Shown: one piece after another, positions 2,450 to 31,666 of the stretch
Numbering within the stretch: position 1 is the stretch's first letter
Layout of the letters: each line of letters starts with the position of its first letter
IMG/VR virus record: IMGVR_UViG_3300031812_000016
Coordinates: 1 to 31,666 of that record
DNA from: a virus
Reading direction: 5' to 3' (one strand)
Length of the DNA stretch: 31,666 bases
Made by a program: the position numbers and the translations under genes
The notes under the pieces: model-generated
The model's input: the letters and a program-made list of their open reading frames with translations, nothing else
Databases searched by the model: none
What the model was told of the DNA's origin: nothing

Positions 2450-2961
2450 CGCCGACCGACGCCCGTGATGCACGACGCCATGCCGCGATATACTTCGTGG
2501 TGGCGGCATTCGCCGCACAAACGGTTGTGTGGCCCCTCGGATGGGAAAATGCGTTCGCAGCGTAGGCATTTCCGCGGCCGCGCGGTGGTGTGCGCCTGGG
2601 TTGTGGCCTGCTTCGCGTAATCTGCCTCAGTCCGCAGTTCATCGGCCTTAGCCTTCACGGCTGGTATTGTGCGCTTCAGGCGTTCGGCGATCTCGGCATG
2701 CGCCACGCCGTCGGCGAGCATCTGGCGAAGCGTTGCGATCTCCTCGGGCTTCCACTTGCGCGTCAGGTTTTTGGGCGGGGGCGCGAGTTCGTCCGTGCGG
2801 TGTCTAGTCTCGGCGCAGATCGCGCGCAGGATGTCGCGCGGCAGGTCTTTGTGCGCGCGAAGCATGCGATCAAGGGGCCAGCCCTGTCGCCAGCGCATAG
2901 TGATGCGAGCGATGCGGTTTGGCGTAAGGCGAGGATGCGAGGTATTTGCGTCAGCGCACAT
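2446..2961 (-). CDS. HTH (SANT/GcrA-like) protein with C-terminal zinc knuckle
   Basis: This is a 171-aa protein. The start at 2961 is chosen because GGAG lies six bases upstream; it overlaps the preceding gene by 11 bases. Residues ~66-103 (from RKWKPEEIATLRQMLADG) resemble a SANT/Myb or GcrA-type helix-turn-helix. The C-terminal tail carries four cysteines, C132, C135, C149 and C152, as a CxxC-x13-CxxC knuckle around SEGPHNRLCGECR, likely binding one zinc. The N-terminal 60 residues are basic and unrecognised. The architecture suggests a DNA-binding regulator or replication accessory factor. No specific function can be assigned. A further in-frame ATG at 2898 would shorten it but lacks a comparable ribosome site. 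Confidence 0.75.
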   Translation of the reverse strand: MCADANTSHPRLTPNRIARITMRWRQGWPLDRMLRAHKDLPRDILRAICAETRHRTDELAPPPKNLTRKWKPEEIATLRQMLADGVAHAEIAERLKRTIPAVKAKADELRTEADYAKQATTQAHTTARPRKCLRCERIFPSEGPHNRLCGECRHHEVYRGMASCITGVGRR

Positions 2962-3307
2962 TCGCCGCTCCGGCCAGTTCGAGACTGATCTTCCGGATGA
3001 TGGCACGCGGCACGTCGCGCCAGTCGTCTACGCGCAGGACGAAGCCATCTGGCGTCACGAGGTGCTCGCGCGCGTAGGCGTGGGCGTCCGCGTCGCTGGC
3101 CAGAACGCGCCACGGCGTGAGCGGGCGCGGCACGTCGGAGAACTCCCAGGCGCGGACTGCGACAGGTCCCGACGCGCGGACGGCGCGGCGCACTTGGGCA
3201 GCTTCGAACGCAGCTGCGTGGCCTTCTGCCAGCGTGTTCCATTGCGGTGGCGGGACTGACGCGCTTGCATCCAGCAGCAGCGCCAAAGCGACAGCGCAGG
3301 CGCTCAT
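2951..3307 (-). CDS. Short DUF1194-like (vWA-type) protein
   Basis: This is a 118-aa protein with start ATG 3305-3307 overlapping the regulator's stop as ATGA. The N-terminus reads VALALLLDASASV, a hydrophobic strand followed by a DxSxS metal-ion (MIDAS-like) motif at D13-S17. A helix with GHAAAFEAAQVRRAV and a strand VAVRAWEFSDVPRPLTPW follow. That order resembles the N-terminal half of DUF1194, a von Willebrand A-like family of roughly 220-250 residues. The second half of the fold is absent, so this is either a truncated or minimal version, or a coincidental resemblance. The hydrophobic start could act as a signal peptide. The function is unknown; its place between repressor and replication genes is unexpected for such a fold. 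Confidence 0.7.
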   Translation of the reverse strand: MSACAVALALLLDASASVPPPQWNTLAEGHAAAFEAAQVRRAVRASGPVAVRAWEFSDVPRPLTPWRVLASDADAHAYAREHLVTPDGFVLRVDDWRDVPRAIIRKISLELAGAANVR

Positions 3308-3543
3308 GGCTGCGCTGGCTCGCTATCTTGCGCCACGCTGCGCAGCCGTGCCACGCGGGCGGCGGCCAGCTCTTCGGCGCTGACAACCCCGCCGCAAGCC
3401 TTCTCGACGAGCACGCAGCGCGTATCGGGCACGCCCGAGCGCCGCCATTCCGCAAGCGTGCGCGGGGAAATGCCGATCCGGCGACGGAACTCAGCGGGTC
3501 CGCCCGCCGCTTCGATTGCACGGGAAAGGGGGTCTGCCATCAT
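3304..3543 (-). CDS. Cro/YdaS-like HTH regulator
   Basis: This is a 79-aa protein starting at ATG 3541-3543 (a second ATG follows immediately). A helix-turn-helix spans about residues 7-40, with GGPAEFRRRIGISPRTLAEW and then a recognition/turn segment RRSGVPDTRCVLVEKACGG. This layout is typical of YdaS/Cro-type phage regulators, in which the protein binds operators as a dimer. The C-terminus is an Ala/Arg-rich helix. It is the first gene of the minus-strand replication operon and faces the divergent plus-strand operon, the classic position of a lysis-lysogeny or early switch protein. A palindrome lies 10-26 bases upstream of its start. No CI-like partner with a protease domain is visible here. 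Confidence 0.85.
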   Translation of the reverse strand: MMADPLSRAIEAAGGPAEFRRRIGISPRTLAEWRRSGVPDTRCVLVEKACGGVVSAEELAAARVARLRSVAQDSEPAQP

Positions 3544-3550
3544 GCCGCGA

Positions 3551-3579
3551 CCATGCGAGATTTTCGCATTGCGTGTCAA
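3551..3579 (-). promoter_or_regulatory. Candidate promoter for the replication operon
   Basis: On the minus strand a perfect TTGACA (-35) occupies 3579-3574. A -10 at the usual 17-base spacing would be GCATGG (3556-3551), a poor match. Transcription would then begin almost at the ATG of the regulator (3543), giving a leaderless or nearly leaderless message, as in lambda PRM. The -35 is clear; the -10 and start point are inference. Confidence 0.5.
3553..3569. promoter_or_regulatory. Operator-like inverted repeat in the early switch region
   Basis: ATGCGA and TCGCAT form perfect 6-base arms around a 5-base centre (GATTT). The site lies between the TTGACA box and the start of the Cro/YdaS-like gene, inside the presumed promoter. 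Binding there would block RNA polymerase, so autorepression by the regulator is the simplest reading. A half-site match, TGCGAGA, recurs at 3636-3642 on the other side of the control region. Confidence 0.5.
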
Positions 3580-3626
3580 CCGCCTTCGGCAACGCGCGAT
3601 CAGATTGCGGCGGCGATTTTTCTGCA

Positions 3627-3653
3627 TTTCCCCCTTGCGAGACGTGCGGGAAA
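3627..3653. promoter_or_regulatory. Second inverted repeat upstream of the plus-strand operon
   Basis: TTTCCC (3627-3632) and GGGAAA (3648-3653) are complementary arms 15 bases apart. They enclose the TGCGAGA half-site and a weak -35-like TTGCGA (3635-3640). The repeat lies 33 bases before the first plus-strand start codon and may be an operator for the rightward operon. The promoter itself is not clear from sequence: the best -10 candidate, CATGCT, is poor. Confidence 0.35.
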
Positions 3654-3685
3654 CTTGCATGCTCACCCTATCAATGGAGGGAGAC

Positions 3686-3925
3686 ATGACCATGCACCCC
3701 GATCCGCACGCGCCACACCCGATCAAGCGCAGCCGGATGGTCCTCGCTGCCAAGCCGCGCGCCCAGAAGCCGAGCGCGTTGCGGCTTGTGCTGGGGGCGT
3801 CGCTGGAAGGCGCGGTGTTTTTCGTGTCGCTCGCGGTGCTGCTGCTGGCGGTGCTGCTGATCGCTGGCACCGATGCGCAGGTGCATGCGTGGGCGCATTG
3901 GGCGCGCAATCTGGTAGGAGGATGA
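3686..3925 (+). CDS. Small single-pass membrane protein
   Basis: This is a 79-aa protein. ATG 3686 is preceded by GGAGGGAGAC, a strong ribosome site, and is preferred over the upstream open frame. Residues 1-45 are basic and Pro/His-rich. A long hydrophobic helix (from LEGAVFFVSLAVLLLAVLLI) follows and then a short tail AHWARNLVGG. The expected topology is one membrane segment. It is the first gene of the rightward early operon. It could be a host-takeover or superinfection-exclusion type protein, but nothing in the sequence identifies a function. Confidence 0.7.
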   Translation: MTMHPDPHAPHPIKRSRMVLAAKPRAQKPSALRLVLGASLEGAVFFVSLAVLLLAVLLIAGTDAQVHAWAHWARNLVGG

Positions 3926-4307: not shown

Positions 4308-4792
4308 TGACCACTCCCGCCGCCTACTGCCACGCGCTCGGGCAAGCCGTTCGGCCGCTGATCGCGGCCGATCCGGCGAAGCTCGTGCGCGACGCCGCGG
4401 CGTCCGTCGCCTACGCAGCGGGCATCGCCGACTTGGTGGCCGCCGCCCGCGCGGCGGCTGAGACTTTGCGGCATCTCGACGACGCCGCAGCCGAAATCGA
4501 GCGCGCCCGCGAGGCGCTCGCCACCACGCTGCGTGACGTGATGGCCGACACTGGGCTTACGTCCGTCCGGGTGCCGGGCGGCACCTGGTATCTGCGGGAG
4601 CCGACGCCGCGCGTGATCGTCACGGACGAAAGCGCGCTGCCTCTGGAATATCTCGTGCAGCCGCCGCCGCGCCCCGACGTGGCGGCGATCCGCGCCGCGC
4701 TCCGCGCAGGCCGCGACGTGCCAGGCGCGGTGCTGTCCAACGGGGGCGATCCCGCCCTCTGCTACCGCGGCAACCAGGGAGACAAGCCATGA
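4307..4792 (+). CDS. Gp157-like protein
   Basis: This is a 161-aa protein starting at ATG 4307, one base overlapping the previous stop and joined to recT by ATGA. The N-terminal 90 residues are a long Ala-rich helical region. The C-terminal part reads TSVRVPGGTWYLREPTPRV, then LPLEYLVQPPPRPDVAAIRA, then ALRAGRDVPGAVLSNG. This follows the pattern of siphovirus Gp157 proteins: a short beta unit, a Glu-Tyr near the end, and the xxIRxALxxGxxVPGA motif. Gp157 relatives are usually encoded beside RecT/Erf annealing proteins and are thought to assist recombination. The assignment rests on C-terminal pattern and context. Confidence 0.7.
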   Translation: MTTPAAYCHALGQAVRPLIAADPAKLVRDAAASVAYAAGIADLVAAARAAAETLRHLDDAAAEIERAREALATTLRDVMADTGLTSVRVPGGTWYLREPTPRVIVTDESALPLEYLVQPPPRPDVAAIRAALRAGRDVPGAVLSNGGDPALCYRGNQGDKP

Positions 4793-5643
4793 GCCTCACG
4801 ACCCGCCCGGCCAATCCGATGGCCCCGCAGACATTCGCCGAGGCTGAGCGCTTCGCCCGCATGCTCTCGGGAACGGACCTCGTGCCTGCTGCCTATCGCG
4901 GCAAGCCCGAGGCGATCCTGATCGCCATGCAGATGGGCTACGAAGTCGGCCTGAACCCGATGCAGGCCATTCAGAACATCGCCGTGATCGGTGGCAGGCC
5001 TGCCATCTGGGGCGATGCGATGCTTGCGCTCGTTCTGGCCCATCCTGCTTGCGAATACGTGCGCGACGGGGTGGATGGCGAGGGCGATGGCCGTCACGGC
5101 TGGTGCGAGGCCAAGCGGCGCGGCGCGCCGGTGATCAAGCGAACATTCTCCGTGGCCGACGCCAAGCGCGCCGGCCTGTGGTCCAAGTCCGGTCCCTGGC
5201 AGCAGTATCCCGACAGGATGCTCCAGATGCGCGCGCGCGGCTTTGCGCTGCGCGACGCTTTCCCGGACGCTTTGCGCGGCCTCATCTCGCAGGAGGAAGC
5301 GCATGACATACCGTCTGCGCAAGGACCTGTGATCGACGTGGCAGCGGAGCCCGCAAGCGCGCCGCCTGCGCCCGTCAAAGCTGTCGGACCTGAGGCCGAT
5401 ACGCGCTGGCCGATTGTCGCGCCAGATGGCACGCTACACCAAGTCGCGCCACATAGATGGCACGATGCGATGCTCCGCGCGCTGATCCGCCTGACGACAG
5501 CGGCTGACCTGGAGCGGTGGCACGACGCCATGGCACCGCACATGGAGGTCATCTGCGCTATGGGCGGCTACAAAGAGGTCGAGCGCGCCCGCGAAATAAT
5601 CCGCGAGCGGCTTAACGATCTAGAGCAAGAGGAGGCTGCGTGA
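4789..5643 (+). CDS. recT: RecT-family single-strand annealing protein
   Basis: This is a 284-aa protein whose ATG overlaps the previous stop (ATGA). The N-terminal core contains PEAILIAMQMGYEVGLNPMQ, followed by AIQNIAVIGGRPAIWGDAML. These are hallmark RecT/Bet-type segments in which the enzyme recruits and anneals complementary single strands. A second conserved block is KSGPWQQYPDRMLQMRARGF and then ALRDAFPDALRGL. The last 100 residues are a less conserved linker plus a helical tail. Length fits the family. In phage biology it pairs with a 5'-3' exonuclease; none is visible in this operon, so the VRR-NUC protein, a host enzyme or an unrecognised neighbour may fill that role. Confidence 0.85.
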   Translation: MSLTTRPANPMAPQTFAEAERFARMLSGTDLVPAAYRGKPEAILIAMQMGYEVGLNPMQAIQNIAVIGGRPAIWGDAMLALVLAHPACEYVRDGVDGEGDGRHGWCEAKRRGAPVIKRTFSVADAKRAGLWSKSGPWQQYPDRMLQMRARGFALRDAFPDALRGLISQEEAHDIPSAQGPVIDVAAEPASAPPAPVKAVGPEADTRWPIVAPDGTLHQVAPHRWHDAMLRALIRLTTAADLERWHDAMAPHMEVICAMGGYKEVERAREIIRERLNDLEQEEAA

Positions 5644-5644
5644 G

Positions 5645-5983
5645 ATGACGCAAACGCGGCGTAATGAGACGCAACGACAGATCGCCGAATGTGTCCGCGC
5701 GAATGATATGACTCGCGCTACACAGGTCGCCAAAACAATCGCAGACACGGGCCATGAAGCCGTAGAGCGATTAATTGTCAGGCTCTACGACCAAACCAAT
5801 GGCGGCGGCGTTCTGCGCTGGTGCGAACCTGATGTCGCCAATGATGCCGCAGCCACATTGCTCGTTCTACTGGCCGAGCGCGACGCAGCGCGCACTGAGT
5901 TGACCGACGTGCTGGCTGAGAATGATGCTTTGTGCTTCGTCCTCAACAACCTGCGCGCCGAGATCTCGGAGCCGACGCAATGA
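5645..5983 (+). CDS. Hypothetical early protein
   Basis: This is a 112-aa protein starting at ATG 5645, just after the recT stop. The following gene's ATG overlaps its stop (ATGA). The sequence is largely helical, with a central GGGVLRWCEPDVANDAAATL segment and a C-terminal helix (RTELTDVLAENDALCFVLNN) that could be a coiled coil. The DNA is visibly less GC-rich and its codon choice less biased than in flanking genes, consistent with recent acquisition or relaxed constraint. I do not recognise the family. Confidence 0.6.
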   Translation: MTQTRRNETQRQIAECVRANDMTRATQVAKTIADTGHEAVERLIVRLYDQTNGGGVLRWCEPDVANDAAATLLVLLAERDAARTELTDVLAENDALCFVLNNLRAEISEPTQ

Positions 5984-6197: not shown

Positions 6198-6962
6198 ATG
6201 CGTAAGTCCACTGACCGCGACCAGATCGACATCCTTGCGATCAGCGGGGCGAGCCTGACTGTGCATGTGCTCGGCACGAGCCCGCTCATCTTCCACCGCA
6301 TGTCAGAGAAGGCCAAGCGTGAGCTGCTCCTTCCGCGCGGGCGCAAGACGGCCGCCGACAAGGCGTCGCAGCTGAAGCATGAGCCGATCCAGGAATACCG
6401 AGCGAGCGTGTATCGCTACGCGGACGACACGCACCCGACGCGGTTGCGGTTCCCGGCGGCTGCTTTCAAGTCCGCCATGGCGACGGCTGCGCTTGATCTG
6501 CCCGGCGCGAAGCGCAGCGAGATCGGGCGGCTGACCTGGGTGGAAGGCGCGGACGTCGCCATCTACGGCGTGCCTCAGCTCTACATGTCCGTGGTGCGCT
6601 CGAGCGATATCAACCGCACGCCGGACGTTCGCACGCGCGCCATTGTCGCGCGCTGGTGCTGCAAGGTGCGCGTGAATTTCGTTGCGCCCAAGTTGACGGC
6701 GCAGGGCGTTGCGAATTTGCTCAGCGCCGCCGGTGTCACTGTTGGAATCGGCGATTTCCGGCAGGAGAAGGGCAAGGGCAACTTCGGCCAGTTCGTGCTG
6801 GTTGATGAGTCCGACCCGCAGTGGCGCGAGATCGCGGAGACTGGCGGGCGAGAGGCGCAGGACGATGCGCTGGCCAATCCGCGGCCATATGACGAGGAGA
6901 CAGCCGAGATGCTCGAATGGTTCTCATCTCGTATCGTTGCTCTTGGGAGGGCTGTGGCATGA
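6198..6962 (+). CDS. Conserved phage protein, possible RAMP/Cas7-like fold
   Basis: This is a 254-aa protein with a good ribosome site (GGGAG) before ATG 6198. It begins with a beta strand LTVHVLGTSPLIFHRMSEKA and continues with a basic helical stretch and EYRASVYRYADD. PAAAFKSAMATAALDL follows, and a glycine-rich segment VGIGDFRQEKGKGNFGQF lies near residues 184-203. I recall similar proteins as conserved hypotheticals next to annealing proteins in phages. The alternating strands, the buried TSPLIFHR motif and a late Gly-rich loop are reminiscent of RRM-type RAMP (Cas7-like) RNA-binding folds. That resemblance is inference only. The protein probably binds nucleic acid and works with RecT. 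The stop overlaps the next start (ATGA). Confidence 0.72.
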   Translation: MRKSTDRDQIDILAISGASLTVHVLGTSPLIFHRMSEKAKRELLLPRGRKTAADKASQLKHEPIQEYRASVYRYADDTHPTRLRFPAAAFKSAMATAALDLPGAKRSEIGRLTWVEGADVAIYGVPQLYMSVVRSSDINRTPDVRTRAIVARWCCKVRVNFVAPKLTAQGVANLLSAAGVTVGIGDFRQEKGKGNFGQFVLVDESDPQWREIAETGGREAQDDALANPRPYDEETAEMLEWFSSRIVALGRAVA

Positions 6963-7438
6963 TCGTGCTCACGACAAAACAACGTGAAGCGCTGTTGGCT
7001 CTAGCTGAACTTCATCAAGGCCGTATCACGCCCGAGATGGTCGTTGAAGCAGCGCGCGATCCGAACAGCCCGCTTCATACCGCCTTCACTTGGGATGATG
7101 CACAAGCAGCGCACGAGCATCGTCTCGCGCAAGCGCGCGTGCTGTTGCGGCGCGTTCGGGTCGAGATCGAAACAGGTGCGCGGTTGATCCGCGTGCCGTA
7201 TTTCACGCGCGATCCCGAGGCCGCGCCACGCGAGCAGGGGTATTTGACGCTGCCGCGGCTAAGGACGCAGGAGGACGTGGCGCGCGCGGCGCTTGTGGCG
7301 GCGTTCGCGCGTGCGGCGCGTGCGTTGCAGGATGCGCGCGACCTGGCCGAGGCGCTGGGGATTGGCGAGGAGATTGATGCGCTCAGGCGCGACGTGCTGC
7401 GGCTGCGCGACGAGGCGGCTCGTCACACCGTAGCGTGA
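6959..7438 (+). CDS. Hypothetical protein, last gene of the rightward early operon
   Basis: This is a 159-aa protein starting at ATG 6959, overlapping the previous stop (ATGA) although the frame is open further upstream. An N-terminal winged-helix-like segment (LTTKQREALLALAELHQGRI) is followed by FTWDDAQAAHEHRLAQARVL. A beta region RLIRVPYFTRDPEAAPREQG and a long Ala/Arg-rich C-terminal helix complete the protein. The middle motifs look like a conserved phage family that I have seen only as hypothetical. Its stop codon lies inside a perfect 9-base inverted repeat (7418-7443), and the pentamer array begins ten bases later. A DNA-binding role is plausible but unproven. Confidence 0.65.
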   Translation: MIVLTTKQREALLALAELHQGRITPEMVVEAARDPNSPLHTAFTWDDAQAAHEHRLAQARVLLRRVRVEIETGARLIRVPYFTRDPEAAPREQGYLTLPRLRTQEDVARAALVAAFARAARALQDARDLAEALGIGEEIDALRRDVLRLRDEAARHTVA

Positions 7439-7443
7439 CGAGC
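7418..7443 (+). terminator. Perfect hairpin over the last stop codon of the early operon
   Basis: GCTCGTCAC (7418-7426) and GTGACGAGC (7435-7443) are exact complements with an 8-base loop. The TGA stop (7436-7438) lies in the right arm. No T-run follows, so it is not a canonical intrinsic terminator. It may be a Rho-independent-like pause, an RNA-stabilising 3' stem, or a protein site at the edge of the array. The structure is certain; the function is inference. Confidence 0.45.
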
Positions 7444-7447
7444 GTTC

Positions 7448-7975
7448 GGCATGGCGTGGCTCGGCGGGCAGGGCATGGCTGGCGTGGCGCGGCCTGGCGC
7501 GGCGCGGCGAGGCCCGGCGGGGCGCGGCCGGGCGGGGCGTGGCTGGCGCGGCTGGCGAGGCGAAGCGGGGCATGGCGAGGCAGGGCTGGCTCGGCTGGGC
7601 GCGGCGCGGCATGGCGCGGCATGGCGCGGCGCGGCCGGGCAAGGCATGGCTGGCGAGGCGAGGCGGGGCATGGCGAGGCGCGGCTTGGCTGGGCTTGGCG
7701 AGGCATGGCTGGCGCGGCATGGCGCGGCGCGGCCGGGCGCGGCGAGGCCTGGCGAGGCGGGGCTGGCGTGGCGCGGCCTGGCGCGGCGCGGCGAGGCCCG
7801 GCAAGGCGCGGCCGGGGGTGGCATGGCGTGGCTGGCGTGGCTGGGCGGGTCGGGGTCGGGCACGGCCGGGCGAGGCACGGCTCGGCCTGGCGCGGCTAGG
7901 CTGGGCCTGGCGAGGCGAGGCATGGCGGGGCGTGGCGCGCGGGGCTGGCGCGGCACGGCCGGGCATGGCCCGGCG
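7448..7975 (+). repeat. Degenerate GGC-pentamer tandem array (about 100 units)
   Basis: This is an almost unbroken run in which GGC recurs every five bases, the two following bases varying (GC, GA, AT, GT, CT, CG, GG and others). About ten units are four bases long, nearly always GGCT. By hand I count roughly 100 units in ~528 bp. GGC is on the plus strand throughout, so this strand is extremely G-rich. Stops are nearly absent in all frames simply because of composition. Long Ala/Gly/Arg and Pro/Ala/Arg frames on both strands therefore have no support as proteins. GG runs three bases apart could form two-tetrad G-quadruplexes. Rightward transcription would favour R-loops. The role is unknown; possibilities include a replication or partition site, a transcription barrier, or a protein-loading array. 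Confidence 0.9.
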
Positions 7976-7978
7976 AAA

Positions 7979-7998
7979 AATCGCGCGCATGCGCGATT
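7979..7998 (-). terminator. Hairpin with T-run, likely end of the leftward late operon
   Basis: AATCGCGC (7979-7986) and GCGCGATT (7991-7998) pair perfectly around GCAT. Read on the minus strand the stem is followed by a run of T, the form of an intrinsic terminator for leftward transcripts coming from the lysis genes. It lies 21 bases upstream of the plus-strand -10 box, so it could also act as an operator for that promoter. Confidence 0.55.
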
Positions 7999-8003
7999 CC
8001 CTA

Positions 8004-8032
8004 TTGACTAGGCGGCCCGATGGGCCTATGGT
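8004..8032 (+). promoter_or_regulatory. Promoter of the 61-aa/HTH gene pair with operator-like palindrome
   Basis: TTGACT (8004-8009), a 17-base spacer and TATGGT (8027-8032) make a good sigma70-type promoter. The spacer contains GGCCC-GAT-GGGCC (8014-8026), a perfect 5-base inverted repeat. It is ideally placed for repression, possibly by the HTH protein encoded by the second gene. It is the clearest promoter in the window. Confidence 0.65.
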
Positions 8033-8081
8033 GCGCTCACCGGCGAGGGCAATCCAGCCCGCCCGGCGAGGAGAACAGCAG

Positions 8082-8267
8082 ATGCGCCTTTTCACCGTCC
8101 AGGCATGCGCCACCACCGGCCAGTGGATCGAGGGCACCCTGACCGAGATCGGTACGATCGACAAAGCGGAGCACCTAAGCAAGACCGACACGGCCGACGT
8201 GCATTACGACACTTTCGAGCACAATGGCGAGACGTGCGCGGTGGAAGTGCATTGGGTCTACGAGTGA
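8082..8267 (+). CDS. Small hypothetical protein
   Basis: This is a 61-aa protein with ATG 8082 preceded by GGAGAACAGCAG. It has its own promoter ~50 bases upstream. The sequence alternates short strands (MRLFTVQACATTGQWIEGTL) with an acidic C-terminal half (DVHYDTFEHNGETCAVEVHW), suggesting a small beta-rich fold. Two cysteines are present. The stop overlaps the GTG start of the HTH gene (GTGA), so the two are co-translated. I do not recognise the family. Together with the following DNA-binding protein it could form a toxin-antitoxin-like or regulatory pair, but no toxin motif is visible. Confidence 0.7.
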   Translation: MRLFTVQACATTGQWIEGTLTEIGTIDKAEHLSKTDTADVHYDTFEHNGETCAVEVHWVYE

Positions 8268-30176: not shown

Positions 30177-31028
30177 TCACGCCGCCGCGTGCACTCCCCG
30201 CGCGGCGGCGACACCCTCGAACACCCTGTCCTCCCCCGCCAGCACCGCCGGCTCGCCGGTGAAGGCCTGCCAGCGCCGAACCGCCACGTCGACGTAGCGC
30301 GGATCAATCTCCATCGCGTAGCAGACCCGCCCCGTGGTCTCGGCCGCGATGATGGTGCTGCCGCTGCCGCAGAAGGGCTCGTAGGCCGCCTCCCCCGGGG
30401 CGCTGTTGTTCAAGATCGGCCGGCGCATGCATTCCACGGGCTTCTGCGTGCCGTGCACGGTCGCCGCGTCCTCGTCGCCGCCGGTGCCGATCGGCCAGAG
30501 CGTCGCCTGGTCGCGTGCGCCCTGCCAGTGGCCCGTCGCCCCCTTGCGCACGGCGTAGAGGCACGGCTCGTGCTGCCAGTGGTAGTCCCCCCGCCCCAGC
30601 ACAAAGCGCGGCTTCGCCCAGACGATCTGGCTGCGCACCGCGAAGCCCGCCGCCTCCAGGCTCTCGATCACGGTGCGCGCGTGCACGCCGGCGTGCCAGA
30701 CGTAGGCGACGTCGCCCGGGAACAGCGCCCAGGCCTCGCGCCAGTCGGCGCGGTCGTCGTTGGCCACCCGGCCGGTGCGCATCGTCGCCGAGACGCCGGC
30801 CTCGTTCCGCCACTCAGGGTCGTAGTTCACCCCGTAGGGAGGATCCGTGACCATCAGGTGCGGCCGCGCGCCGCCGAGCAGCCGCGCGACATCGCTGGCC
30901 CTGGTGCTGTCGGCGCAGAGCAGCCGGTGCTCGCCGAGCAGCCAGAGGTCGCCGGGGCGGGTGACCGCTCGGCGCGGCGGGTCCGGTTCGGCGTCGGCGG
31001 GGTCCTCGGCCGGCTCGCCCTCTGCCAC
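30177..31028 (-). CDS. DNA (N4/N6) methyltransferase, beta-class order
   Basis: The coordinates start at GTG 31026-31028, the first reasonable start after the frame changes; the same frame is open back to 31640 but encodes nonsense there. Features are VTRPGDLWLLGEHRLLCADS and catalytic DPPY (MVTDPPYGVNYDPEW), with the SAM-binding motif FCGSGSTIIAAE after it. This is the order of beta-class amino-methyltransferases. Such enzymes in phages modify adenine or cytosine N4 and can protect DNA from host restriction. The usual relative carries an N-terminal ParB-like domain in the same frame. Here that domain lies in the frame one base away (see next entry), so the protein is either split, expressed separately or made by frameshifting. 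Confidence 0.8.
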   Translation of the reverse strand: MAEGEPAEDPADAEPDPPRRAVTRPGDLWLLGEHRLLCADSTRASDVARLLGGARPHLMVTDPPYGVNYDPEWRNEAGVSATMRTGRVANDDRADWREAWALFPGDVAYVWHAGVHARTVIESLEAAGFAVRSQIVWAKPRFVLGRGDYHWQHEPCLYAVRKGATGHWQGARDQATLWPIGTGGDEDAATVHGTQKPVECMRRPILNNSAPGEAAYEPFCGSGSTIIAAETTGRVCYAMEIDPRYVDVAVRRWQAFTGEPAVLAGEDRVFEGVAAARGVHAAA

Positions 31029-31531
31029 CCTCTCGTCTGACGCGGCACCGTTGGCAACCGGCGGGCTGGCAACCGCCGGGTTGCCACCGGATCGAGCCCG
31101 GCCAGCAGCCGCTCGATCTCCGCGCCGTCGAAGCCGGTCAGCGCCAAGTCGATGCCGCCCATCTCCTGCAGCTTCGCGAGCTCCGCCTGCAGCAGCGCCT
31201 CGTCCCATCCCGCGTTCAGCGCGATGCGGTTGTCGGCAAGCCGCAGCGCCGCCTTCTGCGCCTCGGTGAGGCCAGCGCGGACGATCGTCGGGACCGTGGC
31301 GAGGCCAAGGGACTGCGCGGCCAGCACCCGGCCGTGGCCGGCGATGATCTCGCCCCGCTCGTCGACCAGCACCGGGGCGACGAAGCCGAACTCGAGGATG
31401 CTGGCCGCGATCTGCGCCACCTGCTCGGGCGAATGCGTGCGCGCATTGCCGGCATAGGGCAGCAGCGAGGCGACCGCGCGCGCCTCGACGGCGCTCGCAG
31501 CCCATGGGACCTGGGGCATCGGGACCTGCAT
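30854..31531 (-). CDS. ParB-like N-terminal domain of the methyltransferase, frame-shifted
   Basis: ATG 31529-31531 opens a 225-aa frame. Residues ~15-100 are a clear ParB-like domain: LPYAGNARTHSPEQVAQIAA, FGFVAPVLVDERGEIIAGHG, VLAAQSLGLATVPTIVRAG and LTEAQKAALRLADNRIALNA. Homology ends near FDGAEIERLLAGLDPV (about residue 147). After this the frame reads Arg/Pro/Thr-rich shadow sequence, while the methyltransferase linker and catalytic domain continue in the -1 frame. The switch falls in a cluster of TGGCAACC repeats. An indel mutation, an assembly error or a real frameshift are all possible. In intact relatives the ParB domain is thought to read DNA or nucleotides for the methylase. No good ribosome site is seen; ATG 31519 is an alternative start. 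Confidence 0.75.
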   Translation of the reverse strand: MQVPMPQVPWAASAVEARAVASLLPYAGNARTHSPEQVAQIAASILEFGFVAPVLVDERGEIIAGHGRVLAAQSLGLATVPTIVRAGLTEAQKAALRLADNRIALNAGWDEALLQAELAKLQEMGGIDLALTGFDGAEIERLLAGLDPVATRRLPARRLPTVPRQTRGWQRASRPRTPPTPNRTRRAERSPAPATSGCSASTGCSAPTAPGPAMSRGCSAARGRT

Positions 31532-31567
31532 GATGGTGGAACGGAGGGGGCGCCGCGGCTGGCAACC
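31052..31567. repeat. TGGCAACC repeats around the ParB/methyltransferase frame switch
   Basis: TGGCAACC occurs at 31052-31059, 31067-31074 and 31560-31567 on the plus strand and inverted (GGTTGCCA) at 31079-31086. The 31067 copy and the inverted copy could form a hairpin with a CGCC-type loop. The copies at 31052-31086 cover the point where the coding frame changes, which makes slippage or a binding site plausible. Confidence 0.55.
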
Positions 31568-31666
31568 TGGAAAACGGGGCTGACGCTGGCGACCTTGCGC
31601 GCGCTTGCTCCCCGCATAAGTATTCGCGGGAAGGAACCAAGCAAATATATTAGCAACGTCCGGTCA
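31568..31666. promoter_or_regulatory. AT-richer right edge, possible leftward promoter
   Basis: This segment is markedly less GC-rich than the rest. On the minus strand TTGCTT (31637-31632), a 16-base spacer and TACTTA (31615-31610) could be a weak promoter for the ParB/methyltransferase gene. No gene is supported here; a neighbouring gene or control region outside the window is likely. Confidence 0.3.

Follow-up and report, generated by a model that had tools for sequence, protein, structure and literature searches.

A degenerate pentamer array in a phage genome as the probable guide region of a VIPR locus

VIPR (Viral Interference Programmable Repeat) was named in a 2026 preprint that is not peer reviewed (bioRxiv 2026.04.26.720920; PMC13142463). 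In the system as described in the main text of that preprint, vrRNAs with 9-16 GGY/NN repeats are bound by Vipr, a RAMP protein, which recognizes double-stranded DNA through their NN bases under a 1-nt skip rule. Next to vipr there is a vap gene, and phages and prophages that compete with the carrier are predicted as targets. VIPR guides can silence a reporter gene and also block phage lambda, and seven types are distinguished, some with staggered or ribozyme-interspersed arrays (PMC13142463).

We analyzed a viral DNA stretch of 31,666 nt from an uncultured phage (IMG/VR record IMGVR_UViG_3300031812_000016, hereafter the window). It carries a striking repeat, explained here by its ties to VIPR, a recently described system that is guided by RNA and thought to predate CRISPR. 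Its likeness to the VIPRs described in the preprint's main text (Escherichia phage SUSP1, type II, and a P. fulva prophage; PMC13142463; PDB 36pp) lies in the combination of vipr, vap and coding-strand 5-nt GGY/NN repeats, borne by a phage, and its blocks of 10-13 units fit the 9-16 units per vrRNA given there. It differs in that each SUSP1 vrRNA is described with a structured 3' tail, whereas the window has a continuous, tail-less array of ~528 bp punctuated by GGCT; in that its core is almost purely GGC; and in its vap family, as Felixounavirus TP1, whose Vipr is SUSP1-like, has a vap of another family.

The window protein also resembles the RAMPs of class 1 CRISPR systems (type III-A Csm3/Cas7, type VII Cas7 and Cas7-11) in its RRM core, thumb-like helical insert and glycine-rich loop, and both arrangements involve repeated subunits on a guide RNA at a fixed periodicity. 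However, the CRISPR period is 6 nt, against 5 nt in the window, and CRISPR guides hold a contiguous spacer, whereas guide information in the window would lie in the NN of each unit. No CRISPR repeats, spacers or cas genes were found among the window repeats and the window ORFs searched, and PADLOC returned no match for vipr or vap. TIGR-Tas systems likewise have phage-borne tandem guide arrays with short split guides, but they differ from the window in their Nop-domain Tas protein and edge/loop repeats, neither of which was seen there.

The array and its neighboring genes

The array consists of ~528 bp of degenerate GGCNN pentamers on the + strand (7448-7976; we set its end one base beyond the 7975 of the initial annotation). 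That annotation, made from the sequence alone, had described GGC at a 5-base step and anticipated an autocorrelation peak at 5, and both held: GGC follows GGC at 5 nt 86 times within the array, TRF reports period 5 with 99.8 copies, and lag-5 identity is 0.656 vs 0.399 +/- 0.018 in mononucleotide shuffles, with harmonics at 10, 15 and 20 (the conclusion on the array being independent of these controls). Clean GGCNN runs extend up to 12-16 units, the longest in 1000 shuffles being 5. The array is the single occurrence in the window and lies on the + strand only; outside it, neither strand has a GGCNN run of at least 5 units. The core is kept in ~96% of units while the NN dinucleotides are approximately random, so that the early inference of selection on the spacing was correct. 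Irregular units comprise nine GGCT and one GGCG (7463), in agreement with the observation that 4-base units are nearly always GGCT, together with a 9-mer at 7934 and the mutated units AGCGG (7564), GGGGT (7815) and GTCGG and GGTCG (near 7849-7858).

As initially placed, the array sits between a rightward early operon, which stops at 7438, and a leftward late operon beyond 8646; a short rightward promoter/HTH unit separates it from the latter. The features of the locus are as follows.

6198..6962, + strand: vipr, encoding a 254-aa single-RRM RAMP protein, phrog_4652 (unknown function); assigned from profile, fold and array linkage
6959..7438, + strand: vap (VIPR-accessory), ~159 aa, phrog_15946; ATGA overlap with the vipr stop
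7448..7976, + strand: putative guide (vrRNA) array, ~103 GGCNN units in blocks closed by a 4-nt unit
7979..7998, no strand assigned: perfect palindrome, AATCGCGC-GCAT-GCGCGATT, after an A-run; read from the sequence
8004..8032, + strand: sigma-70-like promoter, TTGACT-17-TATGGT; promoter scan, 1 found and 0.2 expected

The palindrome is a candidate for a leftward terminator or for the 3' tail of the last guide; a terminator scan gave it no score. The promoter lies downstream of the array and, by position, serves the next rightward genes. An Rfam scan of the window and a blastn search of the array junction against cultured phages both returned no match. The window terminase is 87-90% identical to those of prophages of Caldovatus, Roseomonas, Neoroseomonas and other Acetobacteraceae, and the host is therefore very likely a member of that family. 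A leftward ORF at 30177-31640 looks, read by eye, like a ParB-like protein with a DNA methyltransferase.

The vipr product matches phrog_4652 with an E-value of 7e-15 and gave no match in a Pfam search. A profile of 70 family members, with the window protein as row 1, matches PDB 36pp ('SUSP1 Vipr protein') with an E-value of 1.1e-42, and the motifs R-x-RP-x-F-x-x-W and AG-xxx-G-x-GD-x-RP...GRF align between the two; this link requires the family profile, as phmmer with the 254-aa window protein alone found no match in the PDB, 36pp included. The family-invariant residues are G26, R147, W153, G179, G183, (G185), R188 and G197, of which G183-x-G185-xx-R188...G197 is placed between the last helix and the last strand, the RAMP glycine-rich loop region. 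An AF2 model built from the 70-sequence input (pLDDT 91.8, pTM 0.87) gave Csm3/Cas7 RAMPs as its best Foldseek matches (prob 1.00, TMq 0.44), and all 50 PDB matches listed were CRISPR RAMP chains or effector complexes with them (Csm3, Csm5, type VII Cas7, Cas7-11, gRAMP). Judged by profile and modeled fold, the 6198-6962 product is thus identified as Vipr, a small RAMP protein related to Csm3/Cas7. RecT (4789-5643) had been considered as the array-binding partner and was dropped upon finding vipr.

The likely start of vap is at 6959, within a longer ORF that begins at 6917. All 57 distinct vap relatives lie in vipr loci, on the same strand and usually adjacent, with the ATGA overlap in many; the search for relatives found none in Felixounavirus TP1 next to its SUSP1-like Vipr. 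The AF2 model of the vap product has a pLDDT of 89.7, and a fold search with it gave no confident match among solved structures.

Association of arrays with vipr across phages

We scanned IMG/VR for (GGCNN)7GGC and obtained at least 120 stretches, many of which were true arrays with an NN entropy of 3-3.8 bits and a GC content of 39-76%. On the low-GC contigs L116 and L029, the arrays are intergenic, on the coding strand, and adjoin a gene whose C-terminus is like that of the window ORF at 6198-6962. An iterated search from this ORF found the Vipr family in 85 of 121 loci among the pattern matches listed. Among the listed viral loci picked by pattern and bearing a degenerate array, 82 of 107 carried a vipr gene, 80 of them on the array strand. 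Across the 85 loci with Vipr, array and gene were a median of 58 bp apart (99% within 1 kb). In 11 of the 25 degenerate-array loci without Vipr, the array lay within 1.5 kb of the end of the contig or of the fetched stretch.

The association was also seen when loci were sampled by Vipr homology. A 5-nt GGYNN array lay beside vipr in 8/8 cultured-phage loci (Gordonia phages UmaThurman, ODay and Trine, Mycobacterium phage Saal, cyanophage Cy-LDV1, Pseudomonas phages LESphi2 and Medea1, and E. coli Felixounavirus TP1). In these cultured relatives GGT is mixed with GGC, the GGC of the window being a local form of GGY. A divergent, protein-picked Vipr clade had 5-nt arrays in 22/22 loci, with CGCNN as the core and CACNN in one. 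Among 37 closer relatives of the window Vipr, many of them near-identical, some had clean GGYNN arrays and others GTTNN or mixed cores, which escape a strict GGY scan; the cores in this group are GGC, GG[TA] or GTT. In a minority of protein-picked relatives the array was weak or present in other letters only.

As a negative control, 80 prophage loci picked by terminase contained 0 Vipr and 0 arrays. A search for GGCNN arrays in related phages at the same gene junction had been proposed: 22 of 23 relatives' loci, picked by lysozyme or RecT, had neither Vipr nor array within the stretch fetched, and the exception, L271, has Vipr with CGCNN arrays, the form used by its clade. The contigs of two others, L286 and L299, carry the same Vipr clade as L271 elsewhere. 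Array presence thus follows the vipr gene and not the gene junction.

Guide blocks, proposed function and rival explanations

Taken together, these findings indicate that the window array very probably encodes the guide RNAs (vrRNAs) of a phage-borne VIPR locus, with vipr, vap and array all on the + strand. This reading is based on the array, the vipr-vap-array linkage, Vipr homology and fold, and regular phase-break spacing; RNA expression, RNP formation, the 1-nt skip rule and phage repression come from the preprint's account of other VIPRs (PMC13142463). Sequence-level VIPR features found in the window include Vipr homology, a RAMP fold, GGY/NN pentamers, vap and guides of 10-13 units. The locus adds an Acetobacteraceae phage to the known VIPRs, and its array is among the longer continuous guide arrays in the loci compared.

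Split at its 4-nt units, the array (all + strand) divides as follows.

7448..7480: 5' array end, two short blocks (4 and 3 units) with 4-nt ends GGCG 7463-7466 and GGCT 7477-7480
7481..7544: block 3, 12 NN units (GT GC CT GC GC GA CC GG GC CG GG GT) and GGCT
7545..7587: short blocks 4 (GGCGC GGCT) and 5 (GA GA GG AT GA AG, then GGCT)
7588..7651: block 6, 12 NN units (TC TG GC GC AT GC AT GC GC CG AA AT) and GGCT
7652..7710: block 7, 11 NN units (GA GA GG AT GA GC TT TG TT GA AT) and GGCT
7711..7764: block 8, 10 NN units (GC AT GC GC CG GC GA CT GA GG) and GGCT
7765..7833: block 9, 13 NN units (GT GC CT GC GC GA CC AA GC CG GT AT GT) and GGCT
7834..7946: block 10, ~21 units, several mutated cores; an irregular 9-mer precedes the last GGCT
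7947..7976: last block, 6 units, without a 4-nt end

Blocks 3, 6, 7, 8 and 9 have 10-13 NN units each and block 10 is perhaps two guides, and the array can be read as roughly six complete guide blocks and some fragments. Runs of units are common to blocks 3/9, 5/7 and 6/8: the first seven units of block 9 are those of block 3, 284 bp away, block 5 is a truncated copy of block 7, and units 1-5 of block 8 are identical to units 6-10 of block 6. These shared runs point to growth of the array by internal duplication, followed by NN change.

Phase breaks are spaced regularly in other arrays as well. Over 57 intervals in strict arrays, the mean was 10.8 units with a CV of 0.37 vs 0.77 if random, and 82% fell within 8-14 units vs 31% if random. 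Locus L228 has blocks of 11-11-11-11 closed by GGCG or GTCG, L221 has blocks of 9-16 units closed by GGCG before GTC, and the 4-nt unit is CGCA in L250 and GGCA in most other arrays. Because this spacing equals the reported guide length (9-16), we read the 4-nt GGCT units as most likely marking the boundary between consecutive guides. A broader formulation, to which we give about an even chance, is that the 4-nt unit punctuates continuous VIPR arrays: by breaking the phase by one base, in letters specific to each Vipr clade (GGCT here; GGCA, GGCG|GTC, GTCG|GTT and CGCA elsewhere), it would close one guide and open the next with neither tail nor ribozyme, and the core trinucleotide that the protein reads would likewise differ between Vipr clades (GGC, GGT, GTT, CGC, CAC). 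Neither point is made in this form in the preprint's main text, and its supplement (figs S17, S18) may have them (PMC13142463). Phase breaks as guide boundaries and cores that differ between clades are two testable points on how Vipr reads RNA. A structured 3' tail after each repeat tract is absent between the window blocks, where only the 4-nt unit stands, and the palindrome at 7979-7998 follows the last block; as the preprint reports other array layouts, the absence of tails is not decisive (PMC13142463).

In the mechanism that we propose, the GGCNN array would be transcribed rightward with vipr and vap or after them. Each pentamer of the RNA would be covered by one Vipr subunit, which would hold the GGC as a scaffold and leave both NN bases exposed for pairing. 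The ~10-13 units of a block would together read a DNA sequence with the pattern NNxNNxNNx (1-nt skip), where x would often fall at codon wobble positions, and the gene so targeted, in a rival phage or prophage that shares the Acetobacteraceae host, would be repressed. The GGCT units, breaking the 5-nt phase every 10-13 units, would end one guide and start the next in a tail-less continuous array. We infer that the locus is active, with rival phages as its targets, whose genes it probably lets the window phage switch off; as no natural target was found, this function rests on family membership.

With a 1-nt skip, the window guides matched 1.8 Mb of related loci no better than shuffles did, block 6 had nothing under 3 mismatches of 24 in 279 Acetobacteraceae genomes, and blocks 7, 8, 9 and 10 gave nothing beyond chance in 25 host-clade genomes. 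A 1-nt skip performed no better than 0, 2 or 3 in local DNA, so that the rule was not confirmed in this limited DNA. Three exact 10-unit scans of IMG/VR gave 0, 2 and 0 matches; the two, both 20/20 matches to block 9 (L258, L259), extend to 21-22 of 26, lie in unrelated phages and were taken as chance. As these scans covered few guides with zero mismatch tolerance, the null result is weak evidence against a natural target match.

Could the array instead act as DNA? The initial annotation had proposed an R-loop/G-quadruplex zone that primes replication, a barrier against colliding transcripts, or a loading platform for a phage protein perhaps encoded just upstream. The third idea anticipated the partner, the RAMP protein of 6198-6962, though the array is best read as guide RNA and not as a DNA platform. 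The first two amount to a DNA or R-loop element, in which hybrids of the G-rich transcript, or two-tetrad G-quadruplexes, would serve to prime replication or to halt colliding transcripts at the early/late junction. The strong GC skew across this convergent region, with a G-rich non-template strand, and RNA folding somewhat better than shuffles (z -3.2) fit such an element, which we nevertheless regard as very improbable: in other phages, the genes on either side of an array run in the same direction, arrays can precede or follow vipr, and their GC content spans 39-76%; their presence tracks vipr and not the junction; and neither the degenerate NN nor the regular phase breaks are explained. 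Moreover, the conserved letters are not just G-rich but can be CGC, CAC or GTT, and the CGCNN arrays largely refute the idea.

We likewise give next to no credence to a Gly/Arg/Ala-rich repeat protein, even though long open frames cross the array (for example 7451-8011, or 7259-8191 on the other strand) and gp40 of UmaThurman is an annotated CDS at such an array. GGCNN hardly forms a stop codon in any frame, which makes the openness meaningless; the 4-nt units change the reading frame every 10-13 units, and unrelated phages preserve the 5-nt pattern, with other cores in other clades, and not a peptide. A neutral satellite or an assembly artefact, for which near-copies such as blocks 3/9 might speak as products of slippage, is just as implausible, as slippage does not give degenerate NN with a fixed core and the same pattern recurs with the same protein in finished cultured-phage genomes; this protein association refutes the satellite alternative. 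Somewhat less remote, if still unlikely, is an inactive, VIPR-derived relic degrading via slippage and internal duplication. The mutated cores (7564, 7815, 7849-7858), the fragment blocks 4 and 5, the duplications between blocks 3/9, 5/7 and 6/8 and the empty target searches suit it, but vipr and vap are intact, with all Vipr family-invariant residues present, and cores kept in ~96% of units beside near-random NN need ongoing selection. The reading as a VIPR guide region is thus the one that we retain.

Variant and unannotated loci

The vipr genes of all 8 cultured phages are annotated as 'hypothetical protein', and many such proteins of well-known phages (Felixounavirus, Mycobacterium phage Saal, Gordonia phages) belong to VIPR. 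At least one annotated phage CDS is really a VIPR array: gp40 of Gordonia phage UmaThurman (L129, 4634-4957) is a guide array.

Several loci have further elements near the array. In Gordonia phage Trine (L135, 4640-4920), three copies of a tRNA-3'-half-like element (GCTCCGATGGTCGCATCCGGGGTTCGACTCC..GGGGGAGCA) flank GGCNN guides after vipr; ARAGORN called one of them as an odd tRNA, and the element may be a tRNA-like 3' tail that tRNA-processing enzymes of the host cleave. Rfam on 15 relatives found tmRNA only and no hammerhead, and a permuted tmRNA (85 bits, E 1e-14) lies at 3511-3693 of the viral contig L065, a few hundred bases upstream of vipr. In the Vipr clade of L271 and L283-L304, CGCNN arrays (one CACNN) flank the gene on both sides. 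L271, whose lysozyme is 61% identical to that of the window phage, has a tail with a structured hairpin, and the gene next to its vipr is a different one, winged-helix-like; the contigs of L286 and L299 have late genes related to those of the window.

In L009, L013, L017, L062 and L075, degenerate GGCNN arrays lie in the interior, and no Vipr was found in the DNA fetched; these arrays are perhaps orphan vrRNAs of satellites, or accompany more divergent Viprs. L228 (11300-11560) and L235 (11290-11480) have GTTNN arrays with a GTCG or GGCG phase break, in L228 every 11 units, and a Vipr 38-45% identical to the window's. Finally, two plasmid records, L305 (Sulfitobacter, 4989-5744) and L306 (Paracoccus, 2671-3435), encode Vipr relatives 45-48% identical to that of the window, and the Sulfitobacter Vipr adjoins phage tail genes.
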